From: Erythrobacter sp.
GTDB lineage: Bacteria > Pseudomonadota > Alphaproteobacteria > Sphingomonadales > Sphingomonadaceae
Length of the DNA stretch: 16,521 nt
Assembly: GCA_002695185.1 (NCBI GenBank)
Contig: NZOF01000060.1
Location: 1-16,521 of the forward strand
Reading direction: 5' to 3'
Below, piece after piece: positions 291 to 16,521 of this stretch (its first letter is position 1; each line of letters starts with the position of its first letter). The notes under the pieces were generated by a model. The model made no database searches. It was not told where the DNA came from and saw only the letters and a list, made by a program, of their open reading frames with translations. The position numbers and the translations under genes were made by a program.

Positions 291-968
291 TCACGGTTTC
301 TTCCTGCCCCCCACAGGTGAATTTTTATTCGCATTCACCTGGTCGTTGTGAATTTTCAGCAGTTCCTGCATCAATTCGTCATCAGGGCTGGACATTACGC
401 CCAGGACGACTGCTTCGGCACAATCGTCGGCTGTCACATAAGCATGCCCCATGCTGGCGTCGATGTAGATGGACTGGCCTTCGCATAGCGTGACCGGGTC
501 GTAGAATTCGGTGTGCACGACGATGCTGCCCTTGACGACATACACATATTCTTCACCGGCGTGGCGTACATATTCGCCAAACTGCTCGACGCTCTTGGCT
601 CTTATCGTCGTTAATACGGGCACCATCCGCTTCTGGCGCAATTCCGTGCATAAATATCGATAATCATAATTTGGCGTTTCGACACGGACCGAATGTTCCA
701 TGTCCCCGATACTACGCCGGGCGGTGACGACTTTGGGCGTATGCGGACCTCTGGCTCCGTCTTCCACGAAAAGTTCGGACATACGCATTCCCAAGCGCTG
801 ACTGAGCTGTTGCAGCTTGTCATATGTCAGCGTCAAACGATCATGTTCGACCTTTGACAATGTCGACACCGGGATGCCGCTGTGATCGCTCATTTGCTTT
901 AACGTCCATCCGTTGCGGCTGCGCAGCGCACGAAGCAGATGGCCAAGGGTAGGAACTGACGACGCCAA
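291..968 (-). CDS. XRE-family transcriptional regulator with C-terminal cupin domain
   Basis: Probable DNA-binding regulator of the divergent peptide-utilisation genes. From the proposed start it is 225 residues. An N-terminal helix-turn-helix spans about residues 7-62 (TLGHLLRALR..., then WTLKQMSDHSGIPVSTLSKVE). A small cupin fold covers about 127-183 (HAGEEYVYVVKGSIVV ... GHAYV). Family members of this two-domain type bind a small ligand in the cupin and control neighbouring amine, amino acid or peptide catabolism genes. The frame stays open back to an ATG at 1247, but that would lie inside the divergent hydrolase gene and upstream of the promoter. I chose the TTG at 968 because GGAG sits seven bases before it and the HTH begins just after. 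The ligand is unknown; a D-Glu peptide or its product is a guess from context. The domain call is firm and the start is moderately sure. Confidence 0.85.
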   Translation of the reverse strand: MASSVPTLGHLLRALRSRNGWTLKQMSDHSGIPVSTLSKVEHDRLTLTYDKLQQLSQRLGMRMSELFVEDGARGPHTPKVVTARRSIGDMEHSVRVETPNYDYRYLCTELRQKRMVPVLTTIRAKSVEQFGEYVRHAGEEYVYVVKGSIVVHTEFYDPVTLCEGQSIYIDASMGHAYVTADDCAEAVVLGVMSSPDDELMQELLKIHNDQVNANKNSPVGGRKKP

Positions 969-986
969 GAATTTGCTCCAACACGG

Positions 987-1018
987 TTGACGAACTTTCC
1001 AATCAGGATAAACATATC
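987..1018 (+). promoter_or_regulatory. Candidate promoter of unit 1 (serine hydrolase, dgcA, POT transporter)
   Basis: TTGACG at 987-992 is a good -35 hexamer. The -10 is weak, either TAAACA at 1009-1014 (16-base spacer) or CATATC at 1013-1018 (20-base spacer). The spacing of TTGAC to the downstream motif TCAGGATAAACAT resembles the better promoter before the TonB receptor gene, which supports the call. A poor -10 would fit a promoter that needs activation. Confidence 0.4.
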
Positions 1019-1038
1019 CCGACCAGGATAGTTTGGTC
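1003..1038. promoter_or_regulatory. Operator-like repeats in the divergent intergenic region
   Basis: CAGGATA occurs at 1004-1010 and again at 1024-1030, exactly 20 bases apart, so both copies lie on nearly the same face of the helix. The first copy is part of an inverted repeat, GGATA-N4-TATCC (1006-1019). The second lies inside another, GACCA-N8-TGGTC (1021-1038). Both overlap the promoters for the regulator and for unit 1. A related motif covers the -10 of the TonB receptor gene. The likely binder is the XRE-cupin regulator, by inference from position. Confidence 0.5.
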
Positions 1039-1092: not shown

Positions 1093-3108
1093 ATGCGGAA
1101 GATAATGCGGCTGGTCGCTATGGCGGTGCTAGCGTGCGCAGCGCCGACACATGCGCAAAGTCTAGCACCGCCAAGCACGACGGATCTGTCCAACGTCATG
1201 CGGCAACCGCCGGCAGGCAAAATCGCTATGAAGCCCGACGTGACCAACGGCGATGCGCTGACGAAAGGCGACCTCGATACCTGGCTCGACGGCTATATGC
1301 CCTATGCCCTTCGCAGCGGTGATATTCCAGGCGCCGTGGTCGTGATCGTCAAGGATGGATCGATCCTAACGGCACGGGGCTTTGGCTATGCGGACGTGGC
1401 GCGCCGCACGCCTGTCGATCCCCAGAAGACCCTGTTCCGCCCCGGCTCCATATCGAAGCTGCTCACCTGGACCGCCGTCATGCAGCAGGTTGAGCGCGGC
1501 AAGCTTGACCTTGATCGCGACGTCAACGCCTATCTCGATTTTAAAATCCCACCCTTCAAGGGCAAGCCCATTACTTTGCGCCAGATCATGACGCATACGG
1601 CGGGGTTTGAGGAAACGGCGAAGGGCATCGTCTTTCACGATCAGGCTTATGCGCTGCCCTTGCGTACCTATCTGATAAAGCGGATGCCGAAGCGCATTTT
1701 CCTGCCCGGGACGACCCCGGCCTATTCCAACTACGCCACGGCCCTCGCCGGATACATCGTCGCCCGGGTGTCGGGGCAGTCCTACGACGATTATATCGCC
1801 CGCCACATATTGGCGCCGCTGAATATGCGCGATTCGACGACGCTGCAACCGTTGCCCAAGGCGCTGGCGAGTCAGATGGCGACCGGCTACCCCAACCCGG
1901 GAGAGGCCGCCCCGTTCGAGCTTGTCGGGCCGGGGCCTGCCGGAGATGCCTCCAGTTCGGGCACGGACATGGCGCGGTTCATGATCGCCCATCTTCAAGA
2001 CGGGGCAGGCCTGCTGAAGCCTGCGACGGCGCGGATGATGCACGACAGCCCAACCAGCCCCGTCAATCCTATTTCGCTGCTCCCGCCGCTCAATCGCATG
2101 GAACTGGGCTTTTTCGAAACCAACCTCAACGGTCGGCATGTCATCGGACATCTTGGTGATACCGAGGCATTTCACTCTGCGATGCACCTGTTCATGGGCG
2201 GAGGCGTCGGGCTGTATCTGTCAACGAACGGCACCGGGCGGGACGGCGCGGCCGGAACGCTGCGCACCGCACTGCTACAGGATTTTGCCGATCGCTATTT
2301 TCCCGACACTGCCAGGCCCGACGGACGTGTCGACGCGGAAACTGCGCGGAAACATGCCGCGATGATGGCGGGTCAGTGGTGGACTAGCCGCCGCCTTGAA
2401 ACCAATTTCCTGTCGCTGCTTTCGCTTTTCGGACAAACGCAGGTCGGGATCGGCCCTAATGGGGAACTGACGATCCCCAGCCTTCTTGGAACGAATGGCC
2501 GCCCGCGCGAATGGGTGGAGATCGCGCCTTTCCTTTGGCGCGAGCGCGGCGGCCATGACCGGTTGGCGGCGCAGGTCGTCGATGGCAAGGTCGTGCGTTG
2601 GAGTTTCGACTTCCTGTCGCCCTTCATGGTGTTCGACCGGGTGCCCTTCGGCTTGTCGAGCAGCTGGATCCTACCCGCGATGGCGGTCAGTTTCGGCGTG
2701 CTGTTGTTGACCTTCCTCCATTGGCCATCCGCGTGGCTCATCCGCCGCCGCTATGGCGCAGTCATCGGACTGAAAGGACGATCGCTGGCGGCGTATCGCG
2801 CCGTACGCCTGATCGCCGGGCTGACGGTCGTCCTGATTGCGGCTTGGGCGACCGCCATTATCGCCATTCTCGGCTCCCCGGACCTGGCCGCTGGCGGTGC
2901 TGACGCCATTCTCTGGGTGCTTCAGCTTGCCAGCGCCGCGATATTCGTGGGCGCAGCCGGATTGGCGCTCTGGAATGGCTGGATCGTGCTGAAAGACAGG
3001 CGTGGCTGGCGGTCGATGCTCTGGAGCCTGCTCATCATCCTTTCGACCCTGGTTTTCCTTTATGTGGCGATCCGCTTCGGCCTTCTCGCCATGACGGCGG
3101 AGTTCTGA
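1093..3108 (+). CDS. Membrane-anchored serine hydrolase, beta-lactamase/DD-peptidase family (paralogue 1)
   Basis: A 671-residue enzyme of the SxxK acyl-serine class (Pfam Beta-lactamase family, peptidase S12-like), probably a periplasmic peptidase or esterase. A signal peptide (residues 1-22, ...CAAPTHAQ) is followed by the catalytic domain. S119-I-S-K122 is the SxxK motif, Y211-S-N213 the YxN motif, and H353-L-G355 replaces the KTG box, as in HxG members such as D-aminopeptidase. After the hydrolase domain the chain ends in four hydrophobic segments, at about 525-548, 570-595, 604-628 and 640-664, which should hold it in the inner membrane. ATG at 1093 is preceded by GGAGGG at 1081-1086; an in-frame ATG at 1033 would place 20 unlikely residues before the signal peptide. 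Its stop overlaps the next start by one base. A close paralogue ends the locus at 12857-14851. The substrate is not readable; D-amino-acid peptides are suggested by context. Confidence 0.88.
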   Translation: MRKIMRLVAMAVLACAAPTHAQSLAPPSTTDLSNVMRQPPAGKIAMKPDVTNGDALTKGDLDTWLDGYMPYALRSGDIPGAVVVIVKDGSILTARGFGYADVARRTPVDPQKTLFRPGSISKLLTWTAVMQQVERGKLDLDRDVNAYLDFKIPPFKGKPITLRQIMTHTAGFEETAKGIVFHDQAYALPLRTYLIKRMPKRIFLPGTTPAYSNYATALAGYIVARVSGQSYDDYIARHILAPLNMRDSTTLQPLPKALASQMATGYPNPGEAAPFELVGPGPAGDASSSGTDMARFMIAHLQDGAGLLKPATARMMHDSPTSPVNPISLLPPLNRMELGFFETNLNGRHVIGHLGDTEAFHSAMHLFMGGGVGLYLSTNGTGRDGAAGTLRTALLQDFADRYFPDTARPDGRVDAETARKHAAMMAGQWWTSRRLETNFLSLLSLFGQTQVGIGPNGELTIPSLLGTNGRPREWVEIAPFLWRERGGHDRLAAQVVDGKVVRWSFDFLSPFMVFDRVPFGLSSSWILPAMAVSFGVLLLTFLHWPSAWLIRRRYGAVIGLKGRSLAAYRAVRLIAGLTVVLIAAWATAIIAILGSPDLAAGGADAILWVLQLASAAIFVGAAGLALWNGWIVLKDRRGWRSMLWSLLIILSTLVFLYVAIRFGLLAMTAEF

Positions 3109-4118
3109 TGTCCAAATTAACAATGTCCGTCGCGACGCAAACGCTCCGTCTCGCCGAACCCTTTCGCATTGCGGGCCATGTCTTCGACACGTCCGACATC
3201 ATAGTGGTCACGTTGCGGCGTGGGTCCGCCGTGGGTCGGGGAGAGGCATCGGGCGTCTTTTTCCTCAACGAAGGCGTCGCACAGATGCAGCAAACGCTGG
3301 AAGACGCACGCAGCGCCATCGAAGCAGGCGAAGGACGCGAGGCCTTGTGCGCCATCCTGCCGCCCGGCGGCGCGCGCAATGCGGTCGATTGCGCTTTATG
3401 GGAGTTGGAGGCACAGGAGGCCGACAAACCGGTCTGGGCGCTCGCAGGGCTGGACCAGCCAAAGCCATTGCGGACCACCTTCACGCTGGGCGCTGACAGC
3501 CCCGACGCCATGGCGCACAAAGCGCGGGCCTATGATCATGCACGATCGATCAAGATCAAGCTGACGGGCGATCTCGATCTGGACATCGACCGCGTGCGGG
3601 CCATTCGGGACGCACGGCCCGACGCCTGGCTTGGCATCGACGGGAATCAGGGCTTCAGGAAGGACCAGTTGCCACGCCTTATCCCGGCATTGGTAGAAAC
3701 CGGTGTGTCCTTGATCGAACAGCCGCTGGCGCGTGACCGCGATCAGGATCTGGAAGGGCTGGATTCCCCCATCCCCGTGGCCGGCGACGAAAGCCTTCTT
3801 TGCCTCGATGACATTGCCGGTGCCGTGGGACGGTTTCAGGTCGTGAACATCAAGCTCGATAAATGCGGCGGCCTGACCGAAGGCCTGATGATGGCGGCCG
3901 AAGCACGCCGACTGGGCCTGGGCGTCATGGTCGGCACTATGGTCGGCACAAGCCTTGCGACCGCGCCCGGATTTGTGCTGGGTCAGCTATGCGATCTTGT
4001 CGACCTCGACGGGCCGACCTTCCTTGCAAGCGACCGAAGTCCCAGCGTGCGTTACGAGGATGGCGCGATCTGGGCCGGTCCGCAGGTGTGGGGCGCGCCG
4101 CAGAGCACCCTGGTATGA
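3108..4118 (+). CDS. dgcA: Enolase-superfamily N-acetyl-D-glutamate racemase / dipeptide epimerase (DgcA-like)
   Basis: A 336-residue enolase-superfamily epimerase of the muconate lactonising subgroup, at full family length. Visible catalytic residues are the K149-x-K151 motif, metal ligands D178 (IDGNQ), E204 (IEQPL) and D227 (GDES), and the opposing lysine K252 in IKLDKCGG. D299-x-D301 (VDLDGP) matches the DxD signature known from L-Ala-D/L-Glu epimerases. Such proteins were long called dipeptide epimerases. Many proteobacterial members that occur with a DUF1611 partner are now assigned as DgcA, which racemises N-acetyl-D-Glu to N-acetyl-L-Glu. The dgcN-like gene at 7764 favours DgcA, while the DxD motif keeps L-Ala-D-Glu epimerase possible. 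Either activity acts on D-Glu from peptides, in the cytoplasm. The start overlaps the upstream stop (TGATG), and the 3' end overlaps the transporter gene by four bases. Confidence 0.82.
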   Translation: MSKLTMSVATQTLRLAEPFRIAGHVFDTSDIIVVTLRRGSAVGRGEASGVFFLNEGVAQMQQTLEDARSAIEAGEGREALCAILPPGGARNAVDCALWELEAQEADKPVWALAGLDQPKPLRTTFTLGADSPDAMAHKARAYDHARSIKIKLTGDLDLDIDRVRAIRDARPDAWLGIDGNQGFRKDQLPRLIPALVETGVSLIEQPLARDRDQDLEGLDSPIPVAGDESLLCLDDIAGAVGRFQVVNIKLDKCGGLTEGLMMAAEARRLGLGVMVGTMVGTSLATAPGFVLGQLCDLVDLDGPTFLASDRSPSVRYEDGAIWAGPQVWGAPQSTLV

Positions 4119-5389
4119 CCGCAGCGACGCCGACCTGGTTCGGACAGCCGCGCGGGCTGACCATCTTGTTCCTCACGAACATGTGGGAACAATTCTCCTA
4201 TTACGGGATGCGGACGCTGCTGGTCTATTATATGACCAAGCAATTGCTGCTGGGTCAGCAATGGTCGTCCTTCGTCTACGGCACCTATACCGCCTGCGCC
4301 TATTTCACGCCCATCGTCGGCGGGGTGATAGCGGACCGATTGCTGGGACGCAGGCGCGCGATCATGATCGGGGGTTCGATCATGGCCCTTGGGCATTTCA
4401 TGATGGCGTCCGAACCGCTTTTCTATGTTGCACTAGCGACGATCGCGCTGGGCAACGGGCTGTTCCTACCCAGTCTGCCAAGTCAGATCGACAGCCTGTA
4501 CGACGCGGCCGATCCCCGGCGCGGATGGGCCTATAATGTCTATTATGTCGGCGTGAACGTCGGCGGCTTTCTGGCGCCCCTGATTTGCGGCACGCTTGGC
4601 GAGACGCTGGGTTGGCATTGGGGGTTCGGGGCGGCCGGGCTGGGCATGGTTTCCGGCCTGATCATCTACAGCTGGGGGCGGCGCTATCTGCCGCCAGAGC
4701 CGGCGCGCGAAACGGCGACGCGGGAAAAGACCCGTGGTTTCGACGGGCAGATGGTAGCGGCCCTCGCGGCGGTCGCGATTGCCGTGACCATCTTTCGCGG
4801 GGCGTATGAGCAGGTCGGCAACACCATTGCGCTCTGGTCCGATACCGGGGTGGACCGAAGCTTTGGCGATGTGACGATCCCGATGACCTGGTTTCAATCG
4901 CTCAATTCGCTTTTCGTGATGGCTTTCACGCCCTTGCTGCTCCTCCATTGGCGGCGGAAAGCGGCAAAGGGCCTTACCGACTCGGCGGTCCGCCGTATGT
5001 CCAAGGGTGCCCTGATCGTCGCCGGTGCCTATGCGATGATAGGGGCGCTTAGCTTACAGGCTGGCGCAGACCTTGTCGGATGGGCGTGGCTCGCCCTCTT
5101 CTTTGTCGTCCTGACAGTTGGCGAACTCTATATCCTGCCCACAGGCCTCAGCCTTTTCGCGCGGCTGGCGCCGCCTGGCTATGGGGCGACCACAGTTGCA
5201 GCGTGGTTTCTCGCTATCTTTACAGGCAGCATGACGGCGGGCCTCGTCGGCACACTCTGGAGTCGCATGGAGCCTGGCCCCTTCTTTTTCCTGCTCGCTG
5301 GCATCGCCGGCGCGGCAGCGCTGTTGCTGCGATTGATGGATCCTCTCGTCACGCCGGTTGAAATGCGCGGTTCCGCACAAAAAGTTTGA
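4115..5389 (+). CDS. POT/PTR2-family peptide MFS transporter with altered ExxER motif
   Basis: A 424-residue polytopic inner-membrane protein that should import di- or oligopeptides. The N-terminus carries the family hallmark in altered form, N22-M-W-E25-Q26-F-S-Y-Y-G. The usual form is ExxERFxYYG, so both the first glutamate and the arginine of the proton-coupling motif are replaced. Other POT features are visible: GGVIADRLLGRRRAI after the second or third helix, and GWAYNVYYVGVNVGGFLAPL near residues 132-151. The protein is somewhat shorter than the common 14-helix bacterial POT carriers and probably has about 12 helices. The ATG at 4115 overlaps the epimerase stop as ATGA, which indicates translational coupling; an open frame reaching back to 3863 lies within dgcA and is not used. 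MlrD of microcystin degraders is described as a PTR2-like carrier and may be a relative. The family is firm and the substrate is inferred. Confidence 0.85.
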   Translation: MTAATPTWFGQPRGLTILFLTNMWEQFSYYGMRTLLVYYMTKQLLLGQQWSSFVYGTYTACAYFTPIVGGVIADRLLGRRRAIMIGGSIMALGHFMMASEPLFYVALATIALGNGLFLPSLPSQIDSLYDAADPRRGWAYNVYYVGVNVGGFLAPLICGTLGETLGWHWGFGAAGLGMVSGLIIYSWGRRYLPPEPARETATREKTRGFDGQMVAALAAVAIAVTIFRGAYEQVGNTIALWSDTGVDRSFGDVTIPMTWFQSLNSLFVMAFTPLLLLHWRRKAAKGLTDSAVRRMSKGALIVAGAYAMIGALSLQAGADLVGWAWLALFFVVLTVGELYILPTGLSLFARLAPPGYGATTVAAWFLAIFTGSMTAGLVGTLWSRMEPGPFFFLLAGIAGAAALLLRLMDPLVTPVEMRGSAQKV

Positions 5390-5415
5390 CAATTTCATTT
5401 CAGGATGAATATTCT
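5386..5415 (+). promoter_or_regulatory. Sigma-70-like promoter of unit 2 (TonB receptor onward)
   Basis: TTGACA at 5386-5391 is a perfect -35 hexamer and overlaps the stop codon of the transporter gene. TATTCT at 5410-5415 lies 18 bases downstream as the -10. Transcription would begin near 5422, giving a leader of about 70 bases that contains the hairpin at 5456-5477. Confidence 0.6.
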
Positions 5416-5417
5416 CC
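5400..5417. promoter_or_regulatory. Operator-like motif over the unit 2 -10 element
   Basis: TCAGGATGAATATTCTCC at 5400-5417 matches TCAGGATAAACATATCCC at 1003-1020 at 13 of 18 positions, including the first seven. Both follow a TTGAC -35 by eight to ten bases. The site contains the palindrome GAATATTC and covers the -10 hexamer. Placing the same motif before both units suggests one regulator, most simply the XRE-cupin protein. Confidence 0.45.
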
Positions 5418-5455
5418 AATCAGAGACTTATCGATCCAACTGCAATATTTCATCG

Positions 5456-5477
5456 CCTTTGGGATATGTCCCAAGGG
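5456..5477 (+). promoter_or_regulatory. Stable leader hairpin before the TonB receptor gene
   Basis: Bases 5456-5464 pair with 5469-5477 over nine base pairs (one G-T wobble) around the loop TATG; the core is TTGGGA-TATG-TCCCAA. The stem ends three bases before the ribosome binding site GGGGG at 5481-5485. It could protect the 5' end, modulate translation of the abundant receptor, act as an attenuator for read-through from unit 1, or be a DNA palindrome bound by a dimeric protein. No T-run follows, so it is not a classical terminator. Confidence 0.5.
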
Positions 5478-5490
5478 ATAGGGGGATGGC

Positions 5491-7761
5491 ATGAGCAATA
5501 ATCTCCAGACACTGCTTGTCATATCGACGGCTCTCGCAACGCTGGGTTCTGTCGATGGTGCGCTTGCACAGCAGGCCCCTGACCGGCTGGACGCCAATTC
5601 GGACAGCACGATCATCGTGACCGCCCAAAAGCGTCAGCAAACGTTGATCGACGTTGCGCAATCGGTGTCCGTCCTTTCTGCCGACACTTTGGAAAATCAA
5701 TCGGTCAACACGATCGCTGATTTCCTCAATGCAGTGCCTAGCCTGCAACTCGTCCAATCCACGCCGGGGCAGGGGCGTATCATCCTGCGCGGCGTCAACA
5801 CCGGCGGCGTCGCATCGACGGTCGCGGTCTATATTGACGAAACGCCGTTCGGGTCCAGCAGCGGCCTTGCGAACGGGGCCGAACTGGCGGGGGATTTCGA
5901 CACGTTCGATCTATCGCGGATCGAAGTGCTGCGTGGTCCGCAGGGGACGCTTTACGGCGCAAGCTCGCTGGGCGGGCTCGTCAAATATGTGACGAACGCG
6001 CCTGATGCGACCAAATTTGCCGGGCGTGCTCGTGCGAATGTCGAATTTACCGATGGCGGCGCCATGTCCTATCAGGGCAACGCGATGATCAATGTCCCGC
6101 TGAGCGACACGCTCGCCTTCCGGGCGTCGGGGAGCTATCGCAAGCAGGGCGGCTTCATCGATTCCATCGGTACGGCCGGGTCGGATGTTCAAAAGAACAT
6201 CAATGATTTCCAGAGCTATGGCGTCCGCGCCTCTTTGCAATGGACGCCCAATACGACATTGAAGGTGCGCGCGAGCGCGCTTGTGCAGGACATCAAGGTC
6301 GATGCGCCGACCCGGGTAGAGGTCGATCCCGTCACGCTTCAGCCGCTTTATGGCGGGCTGACCCAGGCGCAATATGTCCCGTCCTTCAGCAATGTTCGCT
6401 ATCGCCTTTATAATCTGCTGGTCGAAAAGGATTTGGGTGCCGCCACCATTACGTCGTCCACAAGCTATGGCGAACAGTTGCAGCGGCGTCGCGACGATCA
6501 GACCGTCTGGATCAACAATGTCGTGTCGGTCCTTGGCCCGGTCTTCGGCTTGCCCCCGCTCGACGGCGACGTCTATCAGGCGCAGATTACCGATAACAAG
6601 AAGTGGACGCAGGAAGTTCGTCTGGCGTCCAACGGCGGCGGTATGCTGGACTGGCTCGTCGGCGGCTATTACACCCATGAAAAGGCACTGATCGACCAGC
6701 AGATCCTGGCGGTCGATCCAGGCACGCTCACCCTGCAACCCTATCTTGCTGAATTTGGCGGCATAGGCAACGCCAACCAACCGTCGAAATACGAGGAATA
6801 TGCAGGCTTCGCCAACGCGACGCTGCATTTTGGCGAGCATATCGACCTCGACTTCGGGGGCCGTTACAGCCACAACAGCCAGAGCACCTCGCAAACCGGC
6901 GGTGGCGTATTGGGCGCACCTGACCCTCTGTCAGGCAGTTCGTCCGACAATGTCTTCACCTATTCGGTGGCGCCCAAATATAAACTCAGCGATCGCGCTT
7001 CGCTCTACGCTCGTGTCGCGCGCGGCTACCGTCCCGGTGGACCCAACACCATTCCGCCCGGCGCGCCGTCTAACGTGCCCCTGACCTTCGGGCCGGACCG
7101 CGTGACAAGCTACGAAGTCGGCTTCAAGGGCGAAACCGTGGACCGCACCTTCGGCATTGATGCCGCGGTCTATCGCATCGACTGGACCGACATTCAGCTC
7201 TATGGCGTCGTCAATAATTACGGCGTCAACATCAACGGCTCGACAGCACGGGTCAACGGCGCGGAAGTGACAGCGACTCTGCGTCCTGTCCGGGGCTTCG
7301 TCACCGCGATCAATGCGGCCTATACCGACGCCGTGCTGACGGGCGACACCGACCCGCAATCGCTTGGCGCGGTCGATGGCGATCGTCTGCCCTTCTCCCC
7401 GAAATATACGGTGAGCATGAGCGCTGACTATGACTGGGACATTGGCAATGACGTGGTTGCGTCTGTCGGCGGCACGATACGGTCCGTTGGCGAGCAAACC
7501 GGGCCCTATGATCCTGCCTATCTCGCGACGGTCGGGCGGTTCGCCCGCATTCCGGCCTATGAGCAGGTCGATCTGCGGGCATCGATCGACTTTGGGCGAT
7601 ATAATCTTCAGGCTTATGTCAAAAATCTGACGAATGCACGGGGTGTGACTGCTGTATTGAACCCGACATCGAGCGGCCTTGCCAACTATCCCAATGACGC
7701 CGGAGCGGTCGGCATCATCCGTCCGCGGACTATTGGGCTCAGCGTCACGGCGGGCTTCTGA
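5491..7761 (+). CDS. TonB-dependent outer-membrane receptor
   Basis: A 756-residue outer-membrane active transporter, powered by TonB-ExbBD, for a substrate too large or scarce for porins. A signal peptide (about residues 1-27, ending GALAQQ) precedes a TonB-box-like stretch (DSTIIVTAQKR, residues 38-48). The plug domain follows (QSVSVLSADTLENQ ... RIEVLRGPQGTLYGASSLGGLVKYVT, to about 170). The remainder is a beta-barrel ending in GLSVTAGF, with the terminal phenylalanine needed for barrel assembly. Length and layout are those of the large sphingomonad family often annotated as siderophore-type receptors. Here the neighbours are peptidases and a D-Glu pathway, so a peptide ligand is more likely than iron. 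Start ATG 5491 has GGGGG at 5481-5485. It leads unit 2 and its stop is two bases before the next start. Confidence 0.93.
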   Translation: MSNNLQTLLVISTALATLGSVDGALAQQAPDRLDANSDSTIIVTAQKRQQTLIDVAQSVSVLSADTLENQSVNTIADFLNAVPSLQLVQSTPGQGRIILRGVNTGGVASTVAVYIDETPFGSSSGLANGAELAGDFDTFDLSRIEVLRGPQGTLYGASSLGGLVKYVTNAPDATKFAGRARANVEFTDGGAMSYQGNAMINVPLSDTLAFRASGSYRKQGGFIDSIGTAGSDVQKNINDFQSYGVRASLQWTPNTTLKVRASALVQDIKVDAPTRVEVDPVTLQPLYGGLTQAQYVPSFSNVRYRLYNLLVEKDLGAATITSSTSYGEQLQRRRDDQTVWINNVVSVLGPVFGLPPLDGDVYQAQITDNKKWTQEVRLASNGGGMLDWLVGGYYTHEKALIDQQILAVDPGTLTLQPYLAEFGGIGNANQPSKYEEYAGFANATLHFGEHIDLDFGGRYSHNSQSTSQTGGGVLGAPDPLSGSSSDNVFTYSVAPKYKLSDRASLYARVARGYRPGGPNTIPPGAPSNVPLTFGPDRVTSYEVGFKGETVDRTFGIDAAVYRIDWTDIQLYGVVNNYGVNINGSTARVNGAEVTATLRPVRGFVTAINAAYTDAVLTGDTDPQSLGAVDGDRLPFSPKYTVSMSADYDWDIGNDVVASVGGTIRSVGEQTGPYDPAYLATVGRFARIPAYEQVDLRASIDFGRYNLQAYVKNLTNARGVTAVLNPTSSGLANYPNDAGAVGIIRPRTIGLSVTAGF

Positions 7762-7763
7762 GG

Positions 7764-8816
7764 ATGTCCAGCGCTCCTCATTTTGCTCTGGATCGTCAGG
7801 AAGAAACTGTCACGAACCTGCCTTCGCCCTATCTGCTTTTTCTGGGGGATACGACAGAAGCTGGCTATGCGAAAACGGCGTTCGGTCTGCGGGATTGGGC
7901 GCCGGACCGGTGCGTAGGCGAATATGTGATGCCCGGCGGTAGCGTATCGACCGGTCTGCCGCAGCTCGATTTTGCCCAAGCCGTCGATAAAGGAGCGCGT
8001 GGGCTCGTCATCGGCGTTGCCAATGCTGGTGGCGTCATCCCGGATGAATGGGTAAACGCGCTGGTGAAAGCGCTGGATGCCGGGCTCGACATCATTGCAG
8101 GAATGCACATGAAACTGAACGCTGATCCGCGACTGGCGGAAGCCGCGCGGCGTTCGGGCAGAAAGCTGATCGATGTGCGGACCCCGCCGCCCGCCATTCC
8201 AGTCGCAAGCGGTCGCCGCCGCAGCGGGCGCAGGCTGCTGACGGTAGGGACGGATTGTGCACTGGGGAAAAAATATACTGCTCTGGCGATCGCACGCGGG
8301 CTTCGGACCCGGGGCGTCGATGCGCAATTCCGCGCTACAGGCCAGACCGGCATCATGATCGCAGGTACAGGAATCCCCCTTGACGCGGTAGTTGCCGATT
8401 TCATCGCCGGCGCGGCCGAACTGCTGAGCCCTGACGCGCACCCAGACCATCTTGATGTCATCGAAGGGCAAGGGTCGCTCTTCCATCCTGCCTACGCCGG
8501 CGTGACGCTGGGGCTGCTTCATGGCAGCCAGCCTGACATGTTCATTGTATGCGACGCTCCTCATCGCGCGACTATATTGGGCAGTCCCGGCTTTCGCCTC
8601 CCGACAATCGAAGCGGTGATCGAGCAGACCATTTCGCTGGGCCGAACCACCAATCCGGACATTCGATGCGTCGGCGTCAGCCTTAACACATCCGGGATGC
8701 CGGAGGACGAAGCCGATGCCCTTTGCGTGGCGCTTGAGCGCCGCGTTGCGCTGCCGGTCGCCGATCCCATGCGGGTAAACCCCCGGTTCGACCGGCTGCT
8801 GGACGCATGCCAATGA
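7764..8816 (+). CDS. dgcN: DUF1611-family D-glutamate N-acetyltransferase (DgcN-like)
   Basis: A 350-residue protein of the DUF1611 family. In the DgcN-DgcA pathway the family member acetylates D-Glu to N-acetyl-D-Glu, which DgcA then converts to N-acetyl-L-Glu. An N-terminal Rossmann-like part (about 22-140, YLLFLGDTTEAGYAKTA ... GVANAGG ... GMHMKL) is joined to a P-loop-like domain. That domain has G162-T-D-C-A-L-G-K-K170 followed by YTA, then FRATGQTGIMIAG and EGQGSLFHPAYAG (234-246). The P-loop is unexpected for an acetyltransferase, and the biochemical assignment rests on family knowledge, not on a visible acetyl-CoA site. The ATG at 7764 is two bases after the receptor stop with no well-spaced ribosome binding site, so translation is probably coupled. 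The first 18 or so residues look like an extension beyond the usual start. Cytoplasmic. The family is firm, the function probable. Confidence 0.83.
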   Translation: MSSAPHFALDRQEETVTNLPSPYLLFLGDTTEAGYAKTAFGLRDWAPDRCVGEYVMPGGSVSTGLPQLDFAQAVDKGARGLVIGVANAGGVIPDEWVNALVKALDAGLDIIAGMHMKLNADPRLAEAARRSGRKLIDVRTPPPAIPVASGRRRSGRRLLTVGTDCALGKKYTALAIARGLRTRGVDAQFRATGQTGIMIAGTGIPLDAVVADFIAGAAELLSPDAHPDHLDVIEGQGSLFHPAYAGVTLGLLHGSQPDMFIVCDAPHRATILGSPGFRLPTIEAVIEQTISLGRTTNPDIRCVGVSLNTSGMPEDEADALCVALERRVALPVADPMRVNPRFDRLLDACQ

Positions 8817-9958
8817 CAGGGGTCCCGGTCAGGCCCTCTGAACACGCCCGGCAGGTGCACGCCCGCCTGCTCAAGCTCGATGGCCACCTCGACGCGCCCA
8901 TCCACTTCATGCGCCAGGGATGGAGCATCGGCGATCGTCATGACCGCAGCACCGACGTGGCGCAGCTCGATTTTCCGCGGATGGAAGACGGCAATCTGAA
9001 CGGCGGTTTTTTCGTCATCTATACGCCACAAGGCCCTTTGACCCAGACGGACTATGACAGGGTGTTCGCGGACGCGTGCCGCAGGTCGGAAGAAATCGAC
9101 GCGACATTGGCGGCATTCCCCGACCGCATTGGCCTGGCGCTGACGGCGCAGGACGCCGAAAGACTGCACGGGCAGAACCGGCTGATCTGTTTCAAGAGCA
9201 TCGAAAACAGCTACCCCGTCGGCGACGATGTGACGCGGGTTGAGGCGTTCCACAAACTCGGTGTGCGTCTGGCAGGCCCGGTACATAGCCGCACAAACCA
9301 GCTGGCGGATTCGGCCACCGATGCCCCGCGCTGGGGCGGGCTTAGTCCGCTGGGCAAAGAGTGGGTCAGCGCGATGAACCGGCTCGGCATGATGATCGAC
9401 CCGAGCCACGCGTCCGACGCCGCCTTTGACGACATGCTGTCGCTGTCGCGTGCGCCCTTGCTGCTGTCGCATTCGGGATCGCGATCGGTCTTCGACACGG
9501 AACGCAATCTCGACGATGGGCGGTTGCGCGCATTGGCGCAGGCGGGCGGCGTCCTGTGCTTCACCACCATCTACCTGTCCGACCTCCACATGACCCCCGA
9601 ACGCGGCGCGCTGATGCGCAAGCTGGGACTGATCCATAGGCTGACCCCCGACGAGCAGGCAGAACTGGCCCACGACTGGAACGCGCTCGACGCGGCGGAG
9701 CCGATGTGGACCGCTGGGTTCGACGCGTTCATGGGCGGTCTACTTCACGTCATCGATGTAGTGGGCATCGATCATGTCGCATTCAGCGGGGACTTTGACG
9801 GCGGCGGCGGCATCGATGGCCTGGCCGACGTAACCGACCTTCCCGTCATCACCGAAAGGCTGATCGAGGCGGGATTGGGCGAAGCCGATCTTGCCAAATT
9901 ATGGGGCCAGAACATATTGCGCGTGCTTCGCGATAATGAGGCGGCTGCGCGCCCGTGA
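8807..9958 (+). CDS. Membrane dipeptidase (renal dipeptidase family, peptidase M19)
   Basis: A 383-residue zinc dipeptidase; M19 enzymes accept dipeptides with a D-residue at the C-terminal position. The binuclear metal ligands are visible: H27-L-D29 (DGHLD), E133 (KSIENSYP), H201 (DPSHAS) and H222 (SHSGSR). An acidic active-site residue lies in SGDFDG (D329). Length is typical. No signal peptide is evident, so it probably acts in the cytoplasm on imported dipeptides such as L-X-D-Glu, although the substrate is inferred. Two starts are possible: ATG at 8807, or ATG at 8813, which gives the ATGA four-base overlap seen at other junctions of this locus; the difference is two residues. The 3' end overlaps the next gene by four bases (GTGA). 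Confidence 0.9.
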   Translation: MPMTGVPVRPSEHARQVHARLLKLDGHLDAPIHFMRQGWSIGDRHDRSTDVAQLDFPRMEDGNLNGGFFVIYTPQGPLTQTDYDRVFADACRRSEEIDATLAAFPDRIGLALTAQDAERLHGQNRLICFKSIENSYPVGDDVTRVEAFHKLGVRLAGPVHSRTNQLADSATDAPRWGGLSPLGKEWVSAMNRLGMMIDPSHASDAAFDDMLSLSRAPLLLSHSGSRSVFDTERNLDDGRLRALAQAGGVLCFTTIYLSDLHMTPERGALMRKLGLIHRLTPDEQAELAHDWNALDAAEPMWTAGFDAFMGGLLHVIDVVGIDHVAFSGDFDGGGGIDGLADVTDLPVITERLIEAGLGEADLAKLWGQNILRVLRDNEAAARP

Positions 9959-11520
9959 CGGCTGCGACCGCCCATATCGACCATGCGGCGCTCGACCGGC
10001 TCTTCGCGCCGTTCGACCGGACCGATGCGCCGGGTTATGCGGTGGGCGTGGCGGTGCGTGGCCAGCCCGCCTATCGCCGTGGCTTCGGTATGGCCAGTAT
10101 CGAACTGCCTGTCGCCTTGTCCCCGACCATACGTATGCGCATAGGGTCGACGACGAAGCATTTCACCGCGCTGGCGCTGCTCCTGCTGGAGGAAGCCGGG
10201 GCACTTTCGCTGGACGATTCCCCCCGCGCCCATCTGCCCGAACTGCCGTCCTGGGCCGACGCCATGACGCTGCGGCAATTGCTGGCGCACACAAGCGGCA
10301 TGCGCGACAGCCTCGACATCCTGCTGCATGCTGCGGGACCGGGGACGGCGCTGCCCGCCGATTATCAGGTTCGCGCGCTTGCCCGCATCGACGATGTCAA
10401 TTTCGCGCCGGGCAGCAGCTGGTCCTATAATAATGGAGGCTATGTCCTCGCCGCCGAGATCATCAGCCGGGTGAGCGGCATGAGCTTCCCGGCCTTCATG
10501 CGCGAGCATATCTTCCTACCGATCGGCATGCGCGACAGTATGGTGCGGCCTCTGGACACCGATCTCGTGCCCAACAGCGCCACGTTGCATGTGCCAAGGC
10601 CCGATGGCGGGTATGATAGGGGCGTTTTCGGCGCCCCGATCGGGGGCGAAGGCGGGATCGCATCGACTGTCGATGATATGCTGCTCTGGCTGCGGCATAT
10701 GGATGATCCTATGGTCGGTAGCGATCAGAGCTGGACCGCCCTGCGCACGGCCCTCATCAGCCACGGTTATGGCCTTGGCCTGTTCGTGGACGCGCATCGG
10801 GGGCTGGAGCGGTGGCATCATGCCGGCGCGGTCATGGGCGGATCATCGCAAATGGTGAAGATCCCGGCGGCTGGCCTCGACATCATCATTCTGTCCAACG
10901 GACGCAGCAGTCTGGAAGGCTATGCCCTTGCCGACTCGATCATAGACCTGTGCATAACGGACCGTCCCCCCATCCCTGAGGACAGGGCAAGCCCCGCGAC
11001 GACAGGCACATATCATTCCCGAGCGACCGGGCGCGTGTTGCGCCTGACCGAAAAGGACGGCGCGCAGATGGTCGCGATCGGTGCCGTCACGCTGCCTGCA
11101 CGCACCGGGCAGGATGGCTCGCTCAGCCTTCCGATCCTGCCGACCGACATGAGGATCACTCTCGGCGATGAGGGCGATCTTCTGACAGTTCGCGAATTCG
11201 GCAAGGTCGACCAACTCGAACGGCTTGCGCTTTCGACCGACGCCGACATGGGGTCGATCATTGGCGATTATGAGAATGAAGCGGCATCCCTGACTGCCAG
11301 CATATCGATCGAAGCGGGGGCCGGGTCGGCACAGCTTGTTCTGGGTAGCCCGATGGGTTCCACAACCTACCAGCTCACACCATTGGCCGACGGACTGTGG
11401 GAAGCGATAGGTGGGACCGGGCTGCCGCTCGTCGTTACGCTCGAATTTGGCGACGGCGGCTTTAGGCTGACGACCGGCAGGACGACGCGGCTTCCCTTTT
11501 ACCGCAAAATGTCGGCCTGA
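9955..11520 (+). CDS. D-aminopeptidase-like serine hydrolase (DAP family, S12)
   Basis: A 521-residue cytoplasmic SxxK hydrolase that should remove N-terminal D-amino acids from peptides or amides. S65-T-T-K68 is the catalytic motif, Y158-N-N160 the YxN motif and H289-A-G291 the HxG box. Ochrobactrum anthropi D-aminopeptidase is about 520 residues with catalytic Ser62, Lys65, Tyr153 and His287. The spacing here is therefore nearly identical, and the roughly 170-residue C-terminal part (from about 345) would correspond to its two beta-barrel domains. Unlike the two anchored hydrolases it has no signal peptide and no membrane segments. The start is GTG at 9955, overlapping the dipeptidase stop as GTGA. 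The stop shares one base with the MFS start. A general beta-lactamase-family esterase is the alternative. The match in length, motif positions and context makes D-aminopeptidase the best reading. Confidence 0.8.
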   Translation: MTAATAHIDHAALDRLFAPFDRTDAPGYAVGVAVRGQPAYRRGFGMASIELPVALSPTIRMRIGSTTKHFTALALLLLEEAGALSLDDSPRAHLPELPSWADAMTLRQLLAHTSGMRDSLDILLHAAGPGTALPADYQVRALARIDDVNFAPGSSWSYNNGGYVLAAEIISRVSGMSFPAFMREHIFLPIGMRDSMVRPLDTDLVPNSATLHVPRPDGGYDRGVFGAPIGGEGGIASTVDDMLLWLRHMDDPMVGSDQSWTALRTALISHGYGLGLFVDAHRGLERWHHAGAVMGGSSQMVKIPAAGLDIIILSNGRSSLEGYALADSIIDLCITDRPPIPEDRASPATTGTYHSRATGRVLRLTEKDGAQMVAIGAVTLPARTGQDGSLSLPILPTDMRITLGDEGDLLTVREFGKVDQLERLALSTDADMGSIIGDYENEAASLTASISIEAGAGSAQLVLGSPMGSTTYQLTPLADGLWEAIGGTGLPLVVTLEFGDGGFRLTTGRTTRLPFYRKMSA

Positions 11521-12860
11521 TGACGACGTTGGCACCCTCCTTCCCCACGCCTGCCCAAGCACGACGCGGCGTCGCGTGCATTGCCACGGCCGGCTTCTTC
11601 CTGTCGATGGACATCACGCTCACCACGCTGCTGATCGAGCCGATAAAGCGCGAAATGGGGTTGAGCGACATCCAGATCGGCCTCGTTCAGGGAACGGCTT
11701 TCGGCATAGCCTTCGGGCTGAGTTCAGTGCCGCTAGGCCGCCTCATCGACAAAGGCGATCGCGTGCGGTTCCTTGGGGTCGGCCTTCTGTTCTGGATTGC
11801 CGCGATGGTCACGACCGGCGCGGCATCGAGCTTTCTGACCCTCATCTGTGCCCGCCTTGTCCTTGGCTGCGTCGCGGCGCTGCTCATTCCAGCGGCATTT
11901 TCCCTGATTGCGGACCTTTTTCCGCCCAAAGGACGCTCGGTCGCGACCAGCCTTTTCGTCGTCGGGCAAGCGGCGGGGCAGGCGTTCGGCATCTTGGTCG
12001 GCGGTCTCGCATTCGACGCGCTCACCGCCTTTCAAAATGCGCATCTCGGCGCGGCGTGGGGCCTGCCCGCCTGGCGCATCCTGTTCATCGGCGCAGCGCT
12101 GCTGGGCCTCGTCCCCTATCTGTTGCTGGCACGCGTCAAGGAACCGGCACGACAGGAACAAAAAGAGCATCATGCAACAGCGATCGGCGCTGCGCGGGAG
12201 CTTTGGACATATCGGCGGTTACTGATCCCGCTTCTCGCCGCAATGTTGTTCACGCAAATCACCATGCAAGCGACTTCGGTGTGGGCGCCCCCCGTTCTGA
12301 CGCGACAGTTCGGGTTGACCCCCGGGCAGTTCGCCGGCTGGCTGAGCGCGATCATGCTTGCAGGCGGAATGCTGGGTGCACTGGCGGGCGGCCGCCTTGG
12401 GAAAGCCGGGCAGCGTCAGGGCGGAAATCGCCGCGTGCTGATGCCCGCCATGACTGCGTCCCTTGCCCTTATTCCGCTTTCCTTGTTCGGCGTGCTTCCG
12501 ACTATCCCGCTCGTTGCGCTTTTCCTTGCGGGGAATATTTTCGCAGGCGCTGTGATCGCGACATTGGGCGTCATCGCGATAACGCTCAACTTCCCGAATG
12601 AAATCCGCGGATTGGCACTCGGCAGCAACGTCCTGTGTTCGACGCTGCTCGGGACCGCCACCGCTCCCGCCGCGATCGCGATGGTCAGCAAGGCCATGGG
12701 CGGAGAAACGATGCTCGGCTTTGCGATTGCCGGTCTGTGCGCGCCGGCAGCGCTCCTGTCGGCGCTGTGCTTTTTCCTGGCGATGCGACAGGGTACCGCC
12801 AACCAGGACGGACGAGGGACAACGAGCGCACAACGCAGTTTGACGGAGGCGAGAGAATGA
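11520..12860 (+). CDS. Major facilitator superfamily transporter
   Basis: A 446-residue inner-membrane carrier with about 12 hydrophobic segments. A loop PLGRLIDKGDRVRFLGVGLLF (after the second helix) corresponds to MFS motif A (GxxxDrxGrr). The fourth and fifth helices carry ARLVLGCVAALLIPAAFSLI and SLFVVGQAAGQAFGILVGG. A charged cytoplasmic loop (VKEPARQEQKEHH) separates the two six-helix halves. It lacks the POT signature, so it is a different type from the transporter at 4115 and may move a product or a second substrate. Direction and cargo cannot be told from the sequence. TGATG overlap with the upstream gene and ATGA overlap with the downstream gene place it firmly in unit 2. Confidence 0.85.
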   Translation: MTTLAPSFPTPAQARRGVACIATAGFFLSMDITLTTLLIEPIKREMGLSDIQIGLVQGTAFGIAFGLSSVPLGRLIDKGDRVRFLGVGLLFWIAAMVTTGAASSFLTLICARLVLGCVAALLIPAAFSLIADLFPPKGRSVATSLFVVGQAAGQAFGILVGGLAFDALTAFQNAHLGAAWGLPAWRILFIGAALLGLVPYLLLARVKEPARQEQKEHHATAIGAARELWTYRRLLIPLLAAMLFTQITMQATSVWAPPVLTRQFGLTPGQFAGWLSAIMLAGGMLGALAGGRLGKAGQRQGGNRRVLMPAMTASLALIPLSLFGVLPTIPLVALFLAGNIFAGAVIATLGVIAITLNFPNEIRGLALGSNVLCSTLLGTATAPAAIAMVSKAMGGETMLGFAIAGLCAPAALLSALCFFLAMRQGTANQDGRGTTSAQRSLTEARE

Positions 12861-14851
12861 GGGCGGTGATAGGCAGGCTGGCAAGAACGGCGCTATTGTG
12901 CGTCGCCGCTCACATGATGGTCGGGGCAGCGCCCGTCACCAAGCCCGCGAAAGTCCTGCCCGCGCCCCCGGTATCGCAGCCCGACGCCAGGCGCACGGTC
13001 GATGTCCCGCAGCCATCCCATGACCTCCACGCCCGCGACCTTGAAGCATGGTTCGACGGCATGCTTCCCGTTGCGCTTGAACAGGGCGATGTCGCGGGCG
13101 CGGTCGTATCGGTGGTGAAGGACGGCCAGATCCTGTTTGCCAAGGGCTATGGCTATGCCGATGTCGCGCGCAAAGTGCCGATGGACGCGCGACGCACGCT
13201 GGTGCGCCCGGGTTCGGTGTCCAAGCTCGTCACATGGACGGCGGTGATGCAGCTGGTGGAACAGGGCAAGCTGGACCTCAACGCCGACGTCAATCGCTAC
13301 CTTGATTTCAGGATTCCCGAACCCTTCGGCAAACCCATCACGCTCAATCAGCTGATGACGCACCGGGCCGGTTTTGAAGAAGGGCTGAAGGACGCGATCA
13401 TCACCGATCCCAAATCGCTTCAAAGCCTCGAAGTCTTTCTCAAACGGCATGTCCGGCCGGTGCTTTTCGCGCCGGGCGAAACGCCTGCCTATTCCAATTA
13501 CGGAACGGCGCTTGCCGGTTACATCGTGCAGCGCGTTTCCGGCCAGTCGTTCGACGATTATGTGGCGCAGCATATTTTCCAGCCGCTCGACATGAGCAGC
13601 TCGACGTTCAATCAGCCTCTGCCGCCGCGCTTTTCGGCGCGCATGTCGAAAGGCTATATTGCGGGATCGGACGCACCCCGCCCGTTTGAGCTCATATCCT
13701 TTTCGCCTGCCGGGGCGCTGACCTCATCGGCCACCGACATGGCGAACTTCATGATCGCGCATCTTCAGAACGGCCGGTTCGGCGGCCAGTCGATATTGCG
13801 GCCCGAAACCGCGCAGACAATGTACAGCGCGTCCATTCCCCATGCCAAGGGATCGGACGTGATGGCCCATGGCTTCTTCCGGGGGTATCGCAACGGCCAC
13901 CTCATCCTGGAACATGGCGGCGACACGATCCTCTTTCACAGCAACCTGCAAATTCTGCCTGATGATGGTGTCGGCCTGTTCATCAGCTTCAACAGCCGGG
14001 GCAAGGGCGATGCGGCCTATGGCATCAGAACCAGTCTGATCGACGGGTTCATGGACCGCTATTTCCCGGGGCCCAAGACCGTGACGCCCCCCGCCCTGTC
14101 CACCGCCAAGGCCCATGGCGCGGAAATCGCCGGACGCTACGAAACGTCGCGCCGCGTGCAATCGGGTTTCATGAGCCTGTTCTACGTCCTTCAGGGGCAG
14201 CAGGTCGTCAGCCTTCAACCGGACGGCACGATCAAGCTCGCCACCGCACCCGAAAAATCCTATCGAGAAGTCGCGCCCTATGTCTGGCAAGAGGTGGGCA
14301 GCACGCAAACCCTGACTCTTCGGCGGATCGATGGCACGAAGACCATCATCGACAGCCACGATCCCATCCAATATTTTCAGGAAGTGCCGCTTCGGCGCAA
14401 CGCCAGCTTCAACCTGGCGATCTTCGGCATTTCCTTTTTGCTTTTGATTGCCGGGGCGGTCGCATGGGTCGCTTCGGCCATCAGCAGGCGGGTCCATGGT
14501 CACGCGGTTGCCTTGCCCCGGCAGGTCGTGCTGGCGCGCCGGTTTGGGCGGATCGCGGTCATGGCGGACCTGGCTTATCTGGTCGGATGGTTTATACTGC
14601 TCTCTCCAATCCTCAGCAATGACGTGGCCTATTATACCTCGGCCCGCGACACCATCATCCGCTCTATGCAAATTGCCGGAGTCATCCCCATGCTCGCCCT
14701 ACTGGCTGGCATCTGGAATTGTGTGGAGGCGTTCCGAGCCCGTCGGCACTGGCTGATCCGGCTTGGAACACTGGTGATGGCGGCTGCCTTGGCGGGTGTC
14801 CTGTGGATCGCCTATGTGGGCGGACTGCTGAGCTTCACGTTGAATTACTGA
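12857..14851 (+). CDS. Membrane-anchored serine hydrolase, beta-lactamase/DD-peptidase family (paralogue 2)
   Basis: A 664-residue paralogue of the hydrolase at 1093, colinear along its whole length. A signal peptide (about residues 1-25, ...MMVGAAP) precedes S120-V-S-K123, Y212-S-N214 and H353-G-G355. The C-terminus again has about four membrane segments (near residues 517-540, 565-588, 605-625 and 635-658 by eye). Stretches such as RPGS-SKL-TWTAVMQ, PAYSNY-TALAGYIV-RVSGQS and DMA-FMIAHLQ are nearly the same in both. Differences cluster in the insert before the HxG box, which may tune substrate choice. The start ATG at 12857 overlaps the MFS stop (ATGA) and GGAGG lies at about 12845-12849. 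It is the last gene of unit 2. Periplasmic trimming of imported peptides is inferred. Confidence 0.87.
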   Translation: MRAVIGRLARTALLCVAAHMMVGAAPVTKPAKVLPAPPVSQPDARRTVDVPQPSHDLHARDLEAWFDGMLPVALEQGDVAGAVVSVVKDGQILFAKGYGYADVARKVPMDARRTLVRPGSVSKLVTWTAVMQLVEQGKLDLNADVNRYLDFRIPEPFGKPITLNQLMTHRAGFEEGLKDAIITDPKSLQSLEVFLKRHVRPVLFAPGETPAYSNYGTALAGYIVQRVSGQSFDDYVAQHIFQPLDMSSSTFNQPLPPRFSARMSKGYIAGSDAPRPFELISFSPAGALTSSATDMANFMIAHLQNGRFGGQSILRPETAQTMYSASIPHAKGSDVMAHGFFRGYRNGHLILEHGGDTILFHSNLQILPDDGVGLFISFNSRGKGDAAYGIRTSLIDGFMDRYFPGPKTVTPPALSTAKAHGAEIAGRYETSRRVQSGFMSLFYVLQGQQVVSLQPDGTIKLATAPEKSYREVAPYVWQEVGSTQTLTLRRIDGTKTIIDSHDPIQYFQEVPLRRNASFNLAIFGISFLLLIAGAVAWVASAISRRVHGHAVALPRQVVLARRFGRIAVMADLAYLVGWFILLSPILSNDVAYYTSARDTIIRSMQIAGVIPMLALLAGIWNCVEAFRARRHWLIRLGTLVMAAALAGVLWIAYVGGLLSFTLNY

Positions 14852-14856
14852 ACATG

Positions 14857-15037
14857 GGAGACGCGCTCTCCGGCAAGTAGGGCCTTGCTGAAGAGCTTGA
14901 CGCCTGGAGGAGGGGCGGCTAGCCCGCCGCTTGCATCAAGAGTCGGGTGAACGCCTGACACCAACCTGCTCCCGGGCAAGGTGGTGCCCCGTAAAAGCGG
15001 GGGATGTGGCCGGACCGGCAACCATGGGATCCTTGCC
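14857..15037 (+). ncRNA. Highly structured non-coding segment, probable group II intron domain fragment
   Basis: This stretch folds into successive hairpins that can be read directly: GGAGA/TCTCC (14857-14871), GCAAG/CTTGC (14873-14888), GGCGG/CCGCC (14914-14928), GTCGGG/CCTGAC (14942-14959), an 11-base arm pair with two mismatches (14959-14969 with 14976-14986), CCCCG/CGGGG (14987-15002) and GCCG/CGGC (15009-15019). GGCAAGG (14975-14981) can alternatively pair with CCTTGCC (15031-15037). The blocks GAAGAGCTTGACGCC and GTCGGGTGAACGCC followed by AACCTGCTCCCGGGCAAGGTG look to me like bacterial group II intron domain I (Rfam group-II-D1D4 type). No reverse transcriptase gene and no domain V are visible, so it would be a remnant. 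A leader riboregulator of the threonine aldolase gene is the alternative. The gene-free gap is 14852-15084. Confidence 0.5.
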
Positions 15038-16164: not shown

Positions 16165-16209
16165 GTCCATGACTGGGGGGATATAGGCTTCGGTCGTCCA
16201 GTTGCGCCT

Positions 16210-16226
16210 CGGGCCGTCATGGCCCG
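16210..16226. terminator. GC-rich hairpin between convergent genes
   Basis: CGGGCC (16210-16215) and GGCCCG (16221-16226) form a perfect six-pair stem with loop GTCAT. A weaker stem GGCGA/TCGCC follows at 16243-16260. Both lie between the threonine aldolase stop and the convergent partial gene, where a bidirectional terminator is expected. There is no T-run on either side, so rho-independent function is doubtful. Confidence 0.3.
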
Positions 16227-16265
16227 CGGACCTTGCCTGCGCGGCGAGACTTTGGTCGCCACGCA

Positions 16266-16520: not shown

Positions 16521-16521
16521 T

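Follow-up and report, generated by a model that had tools for sequence, protein, structure and literature searches.

The window analysed here, a 16,521-nucleotide stretch of DNA from Erythrobacter sp. (GenBank assembly GCA_002695185.1, contig NZOF01000060.1), carries nine genes on its forward strand, encoding a TonB-dependent outer-membrane receptor, serine hydrolases, carriers, a dipeptidase and a pair of proteins related to DgcN and DgcA of the D-glutamate pathway (Table 1). The sequence-only reading had described these genes as co-directional with mostly overlapping junctions, which was confirmed by open reading frame listing and profile searches. All nine are present and tightly packed between positions 1093 and 14851, and neighbouring genes overlap by 1-10 bases, save at the POT/receptor junction (101-base gap) and the receptor/DgcN-like junction (2-base gap). 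An ATG start codon was located for all of them but the DAP-like gene, which starts with GTG. The divergent regulator gene, outside the coordinates covered by that reading, is part of the locus. Judged from its sequence, the locus is most likely a version of the DgcN/DgcA theme adapted to a different D-residue, within an operon for the use of peptides.

Table 1. Features of the window, with positions counted from its first letter (TM, transmembrane)
Feature	Position	Strand	Evidence or remark
XRE-family helix-turn-helix and cupin regulator	about 333-950	-	Pfam HTH_31/HTH_3/Cupin_2; start codon uncertain
Operator/promoter-like element	987-1030	+	TTGAC -35-like, core TTTCCAATCAGGAT at 996-1009, second TCC..GGA dyad
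SH1, PF00144 serine hydrolase, signal-like N-terminus, several C-terminal TM-like segments	1093-3108	+	PF00144 198.8 bits
DgcA-like enolase-superfamily racemase/epimerase, G[HY]xF clade	3108-4118	+	NF042940 358.2 bits
POT-family carrier without ExxER Arg and without TM4 Lys	4115-5389	+	TIGR00924 276.1 bits
TonB-dependent outer-membrane receptor	5491-7761	+	Pfam Plug and TonB barrel
DgcN-like (DUF1611) protein, putative N-acyltransferase	7764-8816	+	NF041892 453 bits
M19 dipeptidase, no signal peptide seen	8807 (or 8813)-9958	+	PF01244 286.4 bits
DAP-like PF00144 hydrolase, accessory, without signal or TM segments	9955-11520	+	NF009622 121.9 bits
MFS carrier, accessory	11520-12860	+	MFS_1 132.3 bits
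SH2, second membrane-anchored PF00144 hydrolase, SH1 paralogue	12857-14851	+	PF00144 211.3 bits
SAM-I/IV riboswitch	14928-15035	+	50.4 bits, cut-off 41.1
PLP beta-eliminating-lyase/threonine-aldolase-like gene	15085-16164	+
3' part of a reading frame, start beyond the window	16165-16521	-

Conservation of the neighbourhood and its control region

Conservation of the neighbourhood had been named as a check in the sequence-only reading and was followed in species genomes by similarity to the DgcN-like protein. The best 80 of 562 confirmed matches gave 78 distinct loci, the closest relatives, of which 65 were at least 20 kb long. A DgcA-like gene was present in 71 of the 78; 72 had a homologue of SH1 with at least 40% identity and 61 a regulator homologue at the same threshold, the best regulator identity being 74%. 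POT carriers were found in 36 loci, TonB receptors in 52 (22 of them at 40% or more) and M19 dipeptidases at 40% or more in 23. The shared neighbourhood is beyond chance, and its conserved core consists of the regulator, serine hydrolase, DgcA-like protein, DgcN-like protein, receptor, a POT or other permease and sometimes the M19 dipeptidase. The exact nine-gene set did not recur among the 78 loci: none had a homologue of the window's MFS carrier (E 1e-10 over 40% of its length) or of the DAP-like gene at 40% or more, while 58 had weaker PF00144-type matches to the latter. The idea that all nine genes form one system thus holds for the core of uptake, hydrolases, carrier and DgcN/DgcA-like pair and fails for the MFS and DAP-like genes, and the window's set is one variant within a family of loci.

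In the commonest order, the regulator stands divergently before SH1, DgcA, POT, receptor and DgcN. Next come a permease-like gene that matches no Pfam family (41 loci) and, further downstream, another PF00144 hydrolase and then an M19 dipeptidase or an amidohydrolase. Many relatives have this permease-like gene after DgcN in place of the MFS carrier. Across 77 near-branch loci (the distant branch is described below), of which 49 had both flanks complete, a PF00144 hydrolase was present in 75, a POT or the permease without a Pfam match in 66, DgcN in 59 (a count that is biased, as the loci were mostly picked by DgcN similarity), the receptor in 57, the regulator in 55 and M19 in 20. The hosts include Sphingomonadales, Caulobacter, Stenotrophomonas/Lysobacter/Dyella and Duganella/Massilia (Oxalobacteraceae), among others. 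Three annotated plasmid loci show the regulator, a serine hydrolase, a "dipeptide epimerase", a TonB receptor and a DUF1611 gene in the same order, with a peptide carrier additionally in two of them; a megablast search with the whole window found no plasmid copy of the locus itself.

The permease-like gene encodes about 380 amino acids (L007:11001-12098, L080:11002-12135 and L122:4177-5304, cluster 6) and often lies directly after DgcN. Pfam gave no match to it, at E 0.001 for L007 and at E up to 1 for L080 and L122; its N-terminal stretch, KAVVIGGGYATG, is permease-like in appearance, and the protein presumably resembles those of the YkvI type. Five further loci (L006, L014, L028, L039 and L074) carry two SH1-type hydrolase copies, a PRK09061-type amidohydrolase and an Xaa-Pro-dipeptidase-like amidohydrolase, hinting at an expansion of the locus type; both amidohydrolases of L006 score under the NCBIfam cut-offs.

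The element TTGACAATTTTCCAATCAGGATCATTATGTCC is repeated across 52 regulator/SH1 intergenic regions. At least 11 of its 14 core bases were matched in 41 of the 52, as against 0.6% of mononucleotide shuffles, a lenient control because the core was derived from those same, related regions. The window holds the exact core ahead of SH1 (Table 1) and three more matches with 3 mismatches, including one at 5393-5406 upstream of the receptor gene; these three are little above chance expectation, the chance mean being 1.03 for all matches. The regulator may bind at this operator-like element, and the neighbourhood is apparently co-regulated.

Residues of the paired enzymes and of the carrier

The DgcA-like protein scored 358.2 bits with NF042940, under the DgcA equivalog cut-off of 400, and 212.7 bits with NF011708 (YcjG), under the cut-off of 343; its AlphaFold2 model had a pLDDT of 94.6. 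The residues K149, K151, D178, E204, D227 and K249, which we take to be the two catalytic lysines and the metal-binding residues of the enolase superfamily, were invariant over 32 rows, and the window's protein has all of them. Also invariant were D299 and D301 of the D-x-D motif, canonical DgcA rows included, so that this motif was dropped as a sign of a dipeptide substrate. Length filters were applied to the aligned rows of DgcA, DgcN and POT.

Core canonical DgcA and YcjG share the 20s-loop pattern [AS]RG.[KR], in place of which the operon clade mostly has [AS]G[HY]VF, and the Arg-Gly loop was missing from all 71 DgcA-like rows of L001-L078. In core canonical DgcA, R23, K/R26 and R52 were fixed in 18 of 18 rows; the 75 operon rows had G23 in 75, F26 in 74 and Y/F52 in 75, the window's protein having G23, F26 and F52. 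Six Arg-Gly rows (L089, L102-L105 and L107), five of them without DgcN near, were left out of the 18-row core. This core includes L101 and L106, for which no DgcN was seen in the fetched stretch and the second of which scores 388, under the cut-off of 400. A maximum-likelihood tree of 82 rows (35 randomly drawn from L001-L078 plus the others) separated the G-loop type from canonical DgcA and YcjG (L086) by a 100/100 branch. By sequence, the DgcA-like protein is a member of a clade separate from canonical DgcA.

The distant branch was sampled in 147 genomes of the order, in which 18 places were chosen, 3 of them near-branch and 15 lower-scoring. The G..F loop was present in 13 of the 15 lower-scoring places, and DgcN adjoins 12 of those 13. 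The remaining two, one with an Arg-Gly loop (L125) and one in which the loop was not covered (L121), had no DgcN nearby. A third DgcA/YcjG-like group (L089, L102, L103, L104, L107 and L125) keeps the Arg-Gly loop and has no DgcN nearby.

The closest solved relatives of the DgcA-like protein are dipeptide epimerases or likely ones. Position 26 is Arg in 1jpd, 4gfi and 3iji and Ile in 3jva and 3rit; the structure titles give an L-Ala-D-Glu complex for 3iji and an L-Arg-D-Lys complex for 3rit. The aromatic lid of the operon clade resembles that of 3jva.

The DgcN-like protein gave 453 bits with NF041892, under the DgcN equivalog cut-off of 480. Arg272, a putative contact with the side chain of D-glutamate, was present in 18 of 18 canonical DgcN rows and in none of 99 rows drawn from operon-type loci (not each of which had DgcA in the fetched stretch); it is Leu in the window. 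The protein shows one marginal hydrophobic stretch and otherwise no TM anchor.

The POT carrier exceeds the TIGR00924 cut-off (130.2 bits), and its ExxER motif reads NMWEQ. In canonical POTs the ExxER Arg lies within salt-bridge distance of the peptide C-terminus, and DtpC has Tyr in its place, according to PMC9309889; the TM4 Lys is highly conserved and is speculated to meet the peptide C-terminus, according to PMC3478282. Among 41 operon-type POTs, rows with a stop being left out, the ExxER Arg position held Gln in 31, Lys in 5, Thr in 2, Met in 2, Ile in 1 and Arg in none, and the TM4 Lys position held Leu in 40, Met in 1 and Lys in none; E231 and E336 were invariant (numbers count from 4118, and 1 is added for the start at 4115). 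The control comprised the 30 POT loci that a search of 16 of these genomes gave: all 17 other POTs retained the ER and the TM4 Lys, as against none of the 13 operon POTs. With the atypical POT transporters DtpC/YjdL the carrier shares the passed TIGR00924 profile and the missing ExxER Arg, and it differs from POTs, these included, in the missing TM4 Lys.

A search for a coexisting pair covered 36 of the genomes that hold the 78 loci. In 19 of these genomes, at 21 places in all, a further protein exceeded the DgcA cut-off; 16 of the places were fetched together with 4 below the cut-off. Thirteen of the 16 are of the core canonical type, 12 beside DgcN, spread over 11 genomes. The other three (L089, L102 and L103) belong to the third group without DgcN, so that 19 genomes over the cut-off do not equal 19 canonical D-glutamate loci. 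A separate canonical DgcN-DgcA pair stands beside an operon-type locus in at least 11 of the 36 genomes. Operon DgcA-like copies, placed via the neighbouring operon POT (for example G001 C38, G005 C13 and G035 C6), scored 345-377 bits.

The canonical type was represented by 19 Arg-Gly DgcA loci (15 fetched places and 4 plasmid records), scanned within 5 kb. DgcN was found in 17 of them, LysR in 12, a DctA-like symporter in 9, an amidohydrolase in 7, a TonB receptor in 4 and a PF00144 hydrolase in 1; none had a POT, the permease without a Pfam match, the XRE-cupin regulator or M19.

Among the remaining proteins, SxxK and YxN motifs are present in SH1 (SISK at 119, YSN at 211), SH2 and the DAP-like protein. 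Over 684 columns the two membrane-anchored hydrolases, SH1 and SH2, share 39% identity, and both have C-terminal TM-like segments; no TM anchor was seen in the M19, DAP-like or DgcA-like proteins. The M19 protein far exceeds the PF01244 cut-off of 26, its best solved relative is 2rag, named Dipeptidase, and it would putatively cleave dipeptides with a C-terminal D-residue. The DAP-like protein stays under the cut-off of 443 of the D-aminopeptidase family NF009622 and has many S12 relatives, with ClbP and D-amino acid amidase as weak matches among them. The receptor has pesticin, colicin I and ferrichrome receptors as weak solved relatives.

Substrate and rival explanations

We consider, with a probability slightly above one half (about 0.53), that the locus is an operon, under regulation, for taking up D-residue peptides or peptide-like compounds as nutrients, whose DgcN/DgcA-like pair would handle a non-acidic, most likely hydrophobic or aromatic, D-residue. 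Since characteristics that one would expect of enzymes for D-glutamate are absent from the key enzymes, the true substrate is probably another D-amino acid, one without charge; the loss of basic residues argues against acidic substrates, D-Asn or D-Gln being conceivable, and F26, the aromatic lid and its likeness to the 3jva lid favour a hydrophobic or aromatic side chain. As a reservoir of organic matter, D-amino acids are large in amount and slow to be degraded.

From the gene order and its conservation, the operator-like element, the separate clade, the catalytic residues kept and the basic residues lost, we infer a substrate, a chemistry and an order of steps. The receptor would carry a D-residue compound across the outer membrane, and the membrane-anchored serine hydrolases (S12) would trim it in the periplasm. 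An amine-bearing fragment would then be imported by the POT-type carrier or, in relatives, by another permease, and the cytoplasmic M19 and accessory hydrolases may release the D-amino acid from it. Finally, the DgcN-like protein would N-acylate the D-amino acid and the DgcA-like enzyme would racemise the N-acyl-D-amino acid. In N-succinyl- and N-acyl-amino-acid racemase routes, a D-amino acid is turned into its L-form by N-acylation followed by racemisation. The same logic is proposed here, with a different acyltransferase family and a different enolase subgroup; no deacylase was recognised in the window.

Several observations weigh against this proposal. Lys replaces the ExxER Arg in five of the 41 operon-type POTs, and none of 13 distant-branch loci had a POT within 5 kb, so that the carrier argument is valid for the near branch alone. 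The near branch has lost Arg46 of DgcN, yet 10 of 12 distant-branch rows still have it. Among the solved epimerases, 3rit has an Arg at the neighbouring loop position and 3iji has Tyr at position 52, which means that a basic loop residue is not unique to enzymes acting on Glu, nor is one at position 52 common to all of these. A YY lid also occurs in L089, L102, L103 and L104 of the third group, despite their Arg-Gly loop; the lid alone is uninformative on acidity, and the case for a hydrophobic or aromatic residue is weakened. Three third-group proteins exceed the DgcA cut-off, with scores of up to 439 bits and no DgcN nearby, and the NF042940 cut-off is therefore no definer of the D-glutamate pathway and may mislabel. 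The aligned rows are, moreover, related by descent.

The sequence-only reading had taken the D-residue to be D-glutamate, with a true DgcN/DgcA pair by which the locus would take D-glutamate from muropeptides or other peptides containing it. DgcN and DgcA are indeed the best-scoring NCBIfam families for both proteins, the predicted model of the DgcN-like protein best matches solved DgcN, and an M19-family gene lies in the same operon. The locus also shares with the DgcN-DgcA pathway a DUF1611 acetyltransferase-like protein and an enolase-superfamily racemase in one operon, with the same folds and catalytic residues. It differs in its TonB receptor, POT or other permease, S12 hydrolases and sometimes M19, and the pair itself in its separate clade, scores under both equivalog cut-offs and lost basic residues. 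Given the lost basic residues and the canonical pairs standing elsewhere in at least 11 of the 36 genomes, D-glutamate was downgraded as the substrate and we hold it to be unlikely; the 19 canonical-type loci, moreover, have a DctA-like symporter in 9 cases and never a POT. Recycling of muropeptides of the YcjG type was likewise downgraded, by the NF011708 score and the tree position: YcjG/YkfB, the L-Ala-D/L-Glu epimerase, has in common with the locus the enolase-superfamily fold, the D-x-D motif and nearby peptidases, and the locus differs by its DgcN-like partner and outer-membrane receptor, YcjG grouping with the Arg-Gly rows.

It is also improbable, in our view, that the DgcA-like enzyme acts as an epimerase of dipeptides, turning L-Xaa-D-Xaa directly into L-Xaa-L-Xaa for peptidases to act on next, with the DgcN-like protein in another role. 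This would agree with the closest solved relatives, the "dipeptide epimerase" annotation in records and the invariant D299 and D301, a motif that does not discriminate, being invariant in canonical rows too. The DgcN-like gene, however, adjoins 12 of 13 distant-branch loci that were picked by DgcA similarity, unlike the seven other Arg-Gly/YcjG loci, all of which were without DgcN. Least credible, and very unlikely, is that the operon's role is to break down an antibiotic or siderophore with a D-residue, nutrition being secondary: the three hydrolases of the beta-lactamase fold (PF00144), the weak matches of the DAP-like protein and the weak likeness of the receptor to siderophore-type receptors fit such a defence or detoxification role, but the receptor and the inward-type carriers point to uptake, and PADLOC gave no match for the four proteins scanned.

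The proposal of uptake and use of a non-acidic D-residue has a wider form, which is tentative and which we regard as doubtful. Such D-peptide loci would be widespread; carrier, acyltransferase and racemase would all have shed positive residues; the imported compound would have no free carboxylate at its C-terminus, as in a C-terminally blocked D-residue peptide; and a non-acidic D-amino acid would become the L-amino acid via an N-acyl intermediate, in a second such D-to-L pathway beside that of D-glutamate. No description of the operon or of the locus class was found in the literature searched, subscription journals being mostly outside that search. If the proposal is true, pairs of DUF1611 protein and dipeptide epimerase that are readable as D-glutamate catabolism would serve another D-residue, and the G[HY]xF loop together with the loss of Arg272 in DgcN would tell both pair types apart by sequence. 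A POT without either of the basic residues presumed to contact the carboxylate of the substrate offers a direct test of POT substrate binding, and the correction of annotation is of use even with a mundane substrate.

Genes downstream of the operon

Downstream of SH2, the S-adenosylmethionine (SAM) riboswitch is directly followed by the pyridoxal phosphate (PLP) gene, and the window ends within a reading frame on the opposite strand (Table 1). A riboswitch also lies upstream in the two closest homologues of the PLP gene (76-77%; L156 and L157), and no SAM riboswitch was seen at the five scanned relatives of 45-47% (L158-L161 and L163). This suggests a SAM-controlled PLP enzyme, and riboswitch and gene look like a unit separate from the nine-gene operon.

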